From Arenicella chitinivorans (GTDB lineage: Bacteria > Pseudomonadota > Gammaproteobacteria > Arenicellales > Arenicellaceae), in NCBI RefSeq assembly GCF_014651515.1, contig NZ_BMXA01000003.1, positions 248,001 to 312,000 on the forward strand: a stretch of DNA of 64,000 nt. Reading direction: 5' to 3'. A model generated the notes under the pieces. The model was not told the DNA's origin, made no database searches, and saw only the letters and a list, made by a program, of their open reading frames with translations. Below are positions 44,069-45,571 of this stretch, in pieces (positions within the stretch are counted from its first letter, which is position 1; each line of letters begins with the position of its first letter). Both the position numbers and the translations under genes were made by a program.

Positions 44069-45070
44069 ATGACCTCCGCAATCGGCGTTTTTGGGGGTAC
44101 GTTCGACCCCATTCATTTGGGGCATCTACAGGCCGTCACTGAGGCTGCGGATGTGTTAGGTTTAGAGCGCGTGCACTGGGTGTTAAGTGCACGGCCGCCA
44201 CACAAGAACAGCGTCTCCGCCAGCATCGCTCACCGTTTCGCCATGCTGCAACTCGCATTGGCCGATAAGGTCGGCTTTGTGGCCGATGATCGTGAGATAC
44301 GTCGCGCTGAAAAATCCTATACCATCGATACCGTGGCGTCTTTTGTTGCGGAGTATCCGAACGTGCGTCTGGTGTTGATTATCGGTGCGGACAGCTTGTC
44401 GGGCTTACCCAGTTGGTCTCGTTACGAGACGCTGGTCGAGCAAGTGAGTTGGGTTGTTTTGCAACGGCCAGGTTATGCAGTCTCCGTGCCAGATGAGCTG
44501 CAGGCGCGGGTGGTTGAGAACCCATCTGATCTGGTGCGCCGAGAGCCCGGCCACCTCTGGCTCTATGAAGACAGTAATATCGATATCTCATCTACTGAAA
44601 TACGTACTGCGCTCAGCACGGGGCATGAGAAACTTGCGCAGGAATATCTGCCAAGCAGCGTTTTAAACTATATTCGCACCAAGCAACTGTATAAAATACC
44701 GGGTATGAATCCAGAACAAATTAAAGATCAAGTGGTTGATGCCCTTGAAAACGTAAAAGGCCAGGACATTAAAGTCATCGATATCGCAGATATATCGGAT
44801 TTTGCTGATTTTATGATTGTGGTCAGTGGCACCTCGGACACACATGTTAAAGCCTTGGCGCGCGAAGCCTCAGACAGTCTTCGTAAGCAGGGTGTTAAAC
44901 CATTAAATGAAGATGGTGCTGACGTTGGTGAATGGGTATTAGTCGACTTCGGTGACGTGGTCTTGCATGTAATGCGACCGGAGGTGCGTCAGTACTACGA
45001 TCTTGAGAAACTGTGGGACGAAGACGTCCGTGCGTTGGTAAAACAGCATCGCGCACGGGAAGAAGAATAG
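44069..45070 (+). CDS. NadD-RsfS in-frame fusion: nicotinate-mononucleotide adenylyltransferase + ribosomal silencing factor
   Basis: One uninterrupted 333-codon frame covers two proteins that are normally separate. Residues 1-212 are NadD, the adenylyltransferase of NAD synthesis: GVFGGTFDPIHLGH carries the nucleotidyltransferase HxGH (HLGH), with PPHK and the C-terminal ISSTEIRTAL. Residues 213-333 are RsfS, which binds uL14 and blocks subunit joining in starvation: DFMIVVSGTSDTHVKALA, GEWVLVDFGDVVLHVM and YDLEKLW. An ATG lies exactly at the boundary (44705-44707), but no stop precedes it and no good ribosome site is seen, so a fused product is likely. Reinitiation at that ATG could also give free RsfS. 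Confidence 0.9.
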   Translation: MTSAIGVFGGTFDPIHLGHLQAVTEAADVLGLERVHWVLSARPPHKNSVSASIAHRFAMLQLALADKVGFVADDREIRRAEKSYTIDTVASFVAEYPNVRLVLIIGADSLSGLPSWSRYETLVEQVSWVVLQRPGYAVSVPDELQARVVENPSDLVRREPGHLWLYEDSNIDISSTEIRTALSTGHEKLAQEYLPSSVLNYIRTKQLYKIPGMNPEQIKDQVVDALENVKGQDIKVIDIADISDFADFMIVVSGTSDTHVKALAREASDSLRKQGVKPLNEDGADVGEWVLVDFGDVVLHVMRPEVRQYYDLEKLWDEDVRALVKQHRAREEE

Positions 45071-45097: not shown

Positions 45098-45571
45098 GTG
45101 CGAATCAAGCTATTAGCCGTTGGCACACGAATGCCCTCATGGGTGGTGCAAGGGTACCAAGAGTACGCACAGCGAATGCCGCCGATCTGTCAGTTGGAGC
45201 TGCAGGAAATTACCGCCAAAAAACGGGGTAAGAATGCCGATACCGCACGCATTCTTCGTGATGAAGCTGAACTTCTCAAGTCGGCTGTGCCTGACAACGC
45301 GATAACAATAGCGCTGGATCGGCGAGGCAAACACATTGACACAGAAAACCTGGCGCGCCATATGCAACAATGGATTGATGAGAGTCAGGACGTCGCCATT
45401 TTGATTGGCGGTCCAGAGGGTATCGATGCCAACTTTTTGAATAACGTGCCACTTAAATGGTCGTTGTCAGCGATGACGTTCGCGCACCCGGTGGTTCGGG
45501 TTATGTTGGCCGAACAGCTGTACCGCGCGTGGAGCATCAACGCCAATCTGCCTTACCACCGAGGGGATTGA
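45098..45571 (+). CDS. rlmH: 23S rRNA (pseudouridine1915-N3)-methyltransferase
   Basis: A 157-residue SPOUT methyltransferase. The knot region shows AILIGGPEGI and the C-terminal LSAMTFAHPVVRVMLAEQLYRAW with INANLPYHR. It methylates pseudouridine 1915 in helix 69. It starts at GTG 45098, 27 bases after the nadD-rsfS gene, in the same order as in E. coli. Confidence 0.95.
   Translation: MRIKLLAVGTRMPSWVVQGYQEYAQRMPPICQLELQEITAKKRGKNADTARILRDEAELLKSAVPDNAITIALDRRGKHIDTENLARHMQQWIDESQDVAILIGGPEGIDANFLNNVPLKWSLSAMTFAHPVVRVMLAEQLYRAWSINANLPYHRGD

Follow-up and report, generated by a model that had tools for sequence, protein, structure and literature searches.

In the genus Arenicella the genes nadD and rsfS are fused into one reading frame, and selection appears, from comparison of the fused genes, to protect the rsfS start codon inside this frame together with the DNA just before it. 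We consider it probable that the frame yields a NadD-RsfS fusion protein and that the 3' end of nadD and the linker double as the start region of rsfS, giving free RsfS as well.

One reading frame encodes complete NadD and RsfS domains

In the window, i.e. the whole stretch of 64,000 nucleotides of Arenicella chitinivorans DNA that was analysed, a single frame of 333 codons encodes a complete NadD followed by a complete RsfS, with no stop between the domains. The relevant features are:

44069-45070, + strand: fused nadD-rsfS open reading frame, 333 aa, including the TAG stop at 45068-45070 (open reading frame and profile matches)
44069-44692, + strand: NadD part, residues 1-208, with the conserved end ...YIxxxQLY (NF000839, TIGR00482; aligns with solved chains)
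44660-44698, + strand: nucleotide-constrained element in the nadD 3' end, GTTTTAAACTATATTCGCACCAAGCAACTGTATAAAATA (strongest synonymous conservation in the gene)
44693-44704, + strand: linker K-I-P-G, four codons (4-25 in relatives; alignment)
44705-44707, + strand: retained rsfS start codon within the fused frame, Met213 (ATG in 15 of 15 fused genes)
44705-44731, + strand: start-region-like first rsfS codons (A as fourth base, GAA CAA ATT AAA; z 7-8)
44705-45070, + strand: RsfS part, residues 213-333, presumed free RsfS product (TIGR00090, PF02410)
45098-45571, + strand: next gene, which we take to be rlmH, a YbeA-type methyltransferase; control gene (open reading frame)

That NadD and RsfS share a frame had been proposed in an earlier note on this DNA and is confirmed by the open frame and by both domains, which pass curated profile cut-offs. 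The first domain does so for NF000839 (residues 4-209, 204.4 vs 187 bits) and TIGR00482 (residues 7-208, 175.8 vs 112.45 bits), and it aligns with the solved NadD chains 1yul and 1k4k. Residues F8-P14, H16, G18, H19, S174, S175 and R179 are invariant in the 15 fused proteins, in agreement with GGTFDPxHxGH and SSTxxR, which we take to be the nucleotidyltransferase motifs of NadD. The second domain passes the cut-off of TIGR00090 (residues 219-316, 115.1 vs 56.9 bits, profile positions 2-99 of 99) and that of PF02410 (profile positions 2-98 of 98), and the RsfS chains 9q40, 30qz/7bl2 and 6sj6 align with it. RsfS, also called YbeB or Iojap, binds uL14 and blocks subunit joining. N-terminal extensions are nothing unusual for RsfS domains, as the match to the MALSU1 chain 5ool_u begins only at its residue 93.

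An AlphaFold model based on a 15-row alignment shows a confident NadD with its final helix at residues 196-204, then an unstructured stretch (205-214) before the first helix of RsfS (215-227). The RsfS part has mostly pLDDT values of 44-68 and the model was used for the linker only; it suggests that the two domains are joined via a short unstructured stretch.

PF02410 has a single match in the 4.03 Mb assembly, the fused gene. PF01467 is found in three proteins of the genome, the fused gene among them, and by sequence the other two look like CoaD and HldE. Hence, no source of NadD or of RsfS other than the fused gene was found in the genome, and its predicted NadD enzyme is the sole one of its type found there. 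The stop of the preceding gene, presumably proA, is immediately followed by the nadD ATG, and rlmH starts 27 bases past the end of the fused frame.

The fusion is widespread in Arenicella and found in some other lineages

Eighteen Arenicella genomes including that of the window were sampled, of which G010 is cut by a contig end, leaving 17 assessable. The survey of relatives suggested in the earlier note recovered the fused frame without a stop in 15 of these 17, the other fused proteins sharing 57-87% identity with the window's protein. In the two unfused genomes the genes are arranged differently: nadD and rsfS overlap by ATGA in different frames in G004, and in G009 a stop is followed by 78 bases and then the rsfS ATG. 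The same note had raised a missed frameshift near 44705. That a sequencing or assembly error conceals a junction stop or frameshift is so improbable that it can be set aside: the frame is open in 15 separate assemblies, 14 besides that of the window, and these differ in sequence and carry linkers of 4, 11, 20 or 25 codons, all in frame.

In a tree built from four neighbouring proteins, the earliest Arenicella branches, G011 and G001, are both fused and the unfused genomes are nested; several nodes of this tree have a support of only 0.5-0.65, the placement of G009 being better supported. This branching suggests that the ancestor of the genus already had the fusion and that two losses followed. 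The two lineages with separate genes, by the tree a reversal, would fit a tolerated by-product, where nadD lost its stop, ribosomes run on, the RsfS tail of the fusion is without function and the internal start supplies the working RsfS. We regard this as quite unlikely, since the fused frame has been kept across deep splits, with identities down to 57%, and the changes in linker length always preserve the frame.

Across Arenicellales, RsfS was found in 106 of 109 genomes and is fused to NadD in 20 of the 106, comprising 15 Arenicella genomes, G018 from the sister genus, G061 (family f2), G031 (f12) and G025 and G035 (both f6). For this count every frame of at least 297 aa was checked and shorter frames were taken as too short for both domains; the loci L146, L147 and L180, where one of the two genes lies beyond the stretch, are outside it. 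With fusions in four families of the order, the fusion is not a one-off accident.

Some of these fusions differ in their junctions. Those of family f6 (L018 in G025 and L026 in G035) have their domains joined by a glycine-rich linker, and the junction lacks a start codon; they are apparently obligate and provide a natural contrast to Arenicella. The 353-aa fusion of family f2 (L141 in G061) has kept the rsfS Met; as no fusion occurs in the remaining f2 genomes checked, it is apparently of separate origin from the others. In family f3 (L121-L138) most loci have the rsfS ATG over the last nadD Tyr codon (CTTTATG or TTATATG), with the two genes in different frames.

In a survey of the class, an even draw of 185 members contained RsfS in 178, and none of the 15 non-Arenicella frames of at least 265 aa among the matches listed is fused. 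Three Gammaproteobacteria rated 96-100% complete (G204, G226 and G259) gave no RsfS match in this survey. From a set of 565 named loci 80 were kept, five of them without RsfS in the stretch examined; three are fused, namely L041 from Arenicella and two metagenome-assembled genomes, L080 (Bdellovibrionales) and L087 (Lentisphaerae). The latter two thus carry NadD and RsfS in a single frame in unrelated phyla, with a Met ahead of RsfS in L087 and none in L080.

The rsfS start codon is retained inside the fused frame

The ATG which the earlier note had placed exactly at the junction is codon 213. Met213 aligns to residue 1 of the solved RsfS chains 9q40 and 6sj6, and the same ATG is the rsfS start in the unfused G004 and G009. 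The linker before it has 4 codons in 11 of the fused genes, 11 codons in two, 20 in one and 25 in one. On the tree no change was found at Met213, while residues 209-212 changed 7, 5, 9 and 11 times and residues 214-218 changed 3, 2, 2, 2 and 3 times. The invariance of Met213 is weak evidence by itself, as 55% of the RsfS columns are unchanged too. A Met at this position is dispensable in fusions, being absent in the two f6 proteins and in L080. The base after the ATG is A in 13 of the 15 fused genes; an A in this place is reported as a mark of bacterial coding starts in the accessible part of PMC5850271.

The earlier note had also seen no clear ribosome site before this ATG, which holds across the genus. 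The Shine-Dalgarno (SD) sequence is TAAGGAGGTGA. None of its 4-mers occurs at positions -20 to -4 in 14 of the 15 fused genes; the remaining one, L013, has a single AGGA.

Synonymous codon choice is constrained around the junction

To quantify constraint on the nucleotides, the share of identical codons at identical amino acids was determined for the 15 fused genes in windows of nine codons and compared to codon shuffles within the genes. All of the 20 highest-scoring windows fall within residues 194-220, with z up to 11.7 and an identical share of 0.74 vs 0.40 expected, the mean z of the gene being 2.1. After dropping the closest relative, L003, the peak z is 10.9, compared with 6.2 for the best window in the rest of the gene. 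With the same measure the control genes proA and rlmH have maxima of 5.7 and 5.3.

Parsimony on the tree, matched for amino acids, agrees with this. In the element upstream of the ATG 0.15 synonymous changes per opportunity were counted vs 0.42 expected (9 scorable columns), and after the ATG 0.19 vs 0.33 (8 columns); for each of the two groups none of 100000 amino-acid-matched draws was as low. Three of the nine upstream columns show zero synonymous change, a state found in 0 of 215 columns elsewhere. The preferred codons vary with the position: Ile is encoded by ATT in 13 of 15 cases at residue 202 and by ATA in 10 of 10 at residue 210 (gene-wide shares 0.43 and 0.22), and Leu by CTG in 10 of 13 cases at residue 207 (gene-wide 0.23). 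The use of ATT at 202, yet ATA at 210 and CTG at 207, argues for specific letters and against AT-richness alone as the cause.

Two other causes were rejected. An overlapping gene does not explain the constraint, as no alternative frame is open across the 15 genes, and neither does some property common to the gene starts of this operon, since z is at most 5.4 where proA ends ahead of nadD and about 3.5 at the rlmH start. The unfused families f9 and f2 have a nadD end of the form YIxxHxLY without comparable synonymous constraint (z 0.5-1.6); in f2, z rises to 8-9 only beyond this end, in the overlap of nadD with the rsfS start. The comparison group f3 gives high scores at many positions (mean z 6.7) and says little, probably because its genomes are close and its frames overlap their neighbours.

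An obligate fusion would require another reason for this constraint. Only full-length NadD-RsfS would then be made, the ATG would be a relic, and the conserved codons would either make translation pause at the rare interdomain ATA or provide the genes downstream with an mRNA signal. We consider this unlikely. The ATA conserved in 10 of 10 cases, the junction without SD sequence and the obligate-looking fusions without junction start in f6 and L080 are consistent with it; the ATG invariant in 15 of 15 genes beside freely varying linker positions, the start-like codon constraint with A as the fourth base, and the start of rsfS at that very ATG in the unfused sisters argue against it. That the strongly conserved part is the internal start region would be expected both for the by-product described above and for the two-product reading that we prefer.

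The earlier note had further proposed that a fusion ties RsfS dosage to NadD. While the fused frame stands, this is probably too simple: the rsfS start kept in all 15 fused genes and the strong nucleotide-level constraint around it point to RsfS also being made alone. A further suggestion of the note was that a fusion would couple NAD supply to translation control; this may be so, the only assay of such a fusion found in print being that of a Wolinella protein described below.

Conserved letters, folding and signals in the nadD 3' end

The constrained stretch ends 6 bases before ATG213 and contains the blocks GTTTT, TATATT and, distally, TATAAAATA. TATATT is exact in 13 of the 15 fused genes. 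The distal block is exact in 8, differs by one base in L007 and by two bases in L005, and is missing in five (L010, L011, L013, L014 and L017). In G011, an early branch and the genome of lowest identity (57%), GTTTTAAACTATATTC and CAACTGTATAAAATA are identical to the window letter for letter. The distance to the ATG is greater by about 21 bases in L008, 48 in L012 and 114 in the unfused G009, yet the blocks have largely kept their position in these three; in the unfused G004 the blocks are lost. The ATGA overlap of G004 could restore translational coupling where the blocks are lost.

The junction has an AT content of 0.63 vs 0.52, and its folding is among the weakest of each gene (on average 4% of the windows are as weak, in the worst case 21%). 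Compared to synonymous shuffles the difference is modest, with means of -4.4 vs -6.3 kcal/mol (Wilcoxon p 0.004).

On the + strand no sigma-70 match (-35 and -10 hexamers with a spacing of 16-18) was found at the junction. By eye, a -10-like TAAAAT within TATAAAATA sits where a leaderless start would need one, with no -35. On the - strand, positions 44695-44667 carry a sigma-70-like match (TTTATA-17-TATAGT, 9 of 12), which is within chance numbers for the region and whose -10 letters, by eye, vary among relatives. A search of Rfam gave no match over threshold, only a sub-threshold match to a plastid 3'UTR (21.4 vs 43 bits). As a genome-wide regulatory motif, CAACTGTATAAAATA was rejected: it has one exact copy, and with up to two mismatches there are 5 sites vs 10 for the reversed control. 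Since it is unrepeated elsewhere in the genome, no regulon supports it. CTGTATA corresponds to a LexA-like half site; this candidate was dropped, the second half not being conserved among the relatives.

A probable dual role for the end of nadD

In the two-product reading, translation of the full frame would give the NadD-RsfS fusion, and the last ~15 codons of nadD with the linker would form the start region for rsfS at ATG213, giving free RsfS besides. We infer that both proteins are made, with free RsfS acting on the ribosome as usual and the fusion serving mainly as the NadD enzyme, with an RsfS domain attached. The start region may take one of three forms. It may be an internal promoter with a transcript start at or next to ATG213, where the TAAAAT as -10 would place it; an AU-rich initiation site without SD sequence on the long mRNA; or an mRNA-processing site in the nadD 3' end. 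The blocks that are largely in place despite a more distant ATG in L008, L012 and G009 favour the promoter form, and the constraint running into the first nine rsfS codons together with the low folding favours the translation form. Both are weakened by the five fused genomes without the distal block.

A more specific version of the promoter form appears doubtful. Here, a promoter hidden in the coding end of nadD and formed by GTTTT, TATATT and TATAAAATA would give a leaderless or nearly leaderless rsfS mRNA, so that a steady NadD-RsfS able to carry NAD synthesis to the 50S subunit would coexist with separately switched free RsfS. In its favour are the blocks that stay largely in position in L008, L012 and G009, and their loss in G004, whose ATGA overlap offers another route to rsfS translation.

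Relation to known systems

In many bacteria nadD, rsfS and rlmH are adjacent in the same order as in Arenicella, where they differ in that nadD and rsfS share a frame; in other Arenicellales rsfS lies directly 3' of nadD, often with an overlap of a few bases. Wolinella belongs to a different phylum from Arenicella. A NadD-YbeB fusion of Wolinella succinogenes has been assayed and had no pyrophosphatase or NAD-cleavage activity according to the available text of PMC3223725, and a two-domain NadD/YbeB fusion is mentioned in that of PMC5462765. With such fusions already in print, the NadD-RsfS fusion itself is not new. By the naming in these partial texts, rather than by sequence comparison, the Wolinella protein combines the same two domains; what we add for Arenicella is a constrained element at the junction. 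Nothing closer than these two papers was found in the literature on NadD-RsfS, NadD-YbeB or NadD-Iojap fusions, no paper was found that treats Arenicella and RsfS together, and nadD goes unmentioned in the RsfA paper (PMC3400551). Thus, the retained and constrained internal rsfS start at the junction looks new.

Genes with two products, such as those of two-polypeptide endolysins (PMC9430671) and Cas11b (PMC11899642), resemble what we infer for Arenicella in having, as far as the available parts of these papers describe, one frame, a shared stop and a conserved in-frame start. They differ from Arenicella, where the long product fuses two otherwise independent cellular genes and the short product is putative. 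An SD sequence is usual, although not strictly required, at the internal starts of two-product genes, whereas the Arenicella start has none in 14 of 15 cases.

The usual reading of a gene fusion is that one protein combines two functions. In Arenicella the fusion has been kept through most of the genus, yet the independent start of the second gene has been kept too, and protein-coding DNA is pinned at the synonymous level around it. For annotation this is a warning that a fused open reading frame can conceal a second product. As fused and free RsfS would be separable by single synonymous or stop changes, Arenicella offers a clean test of whether the linkage of NadD and RsfS matters, a point relevant to the long-standing question of why their genes travel together.
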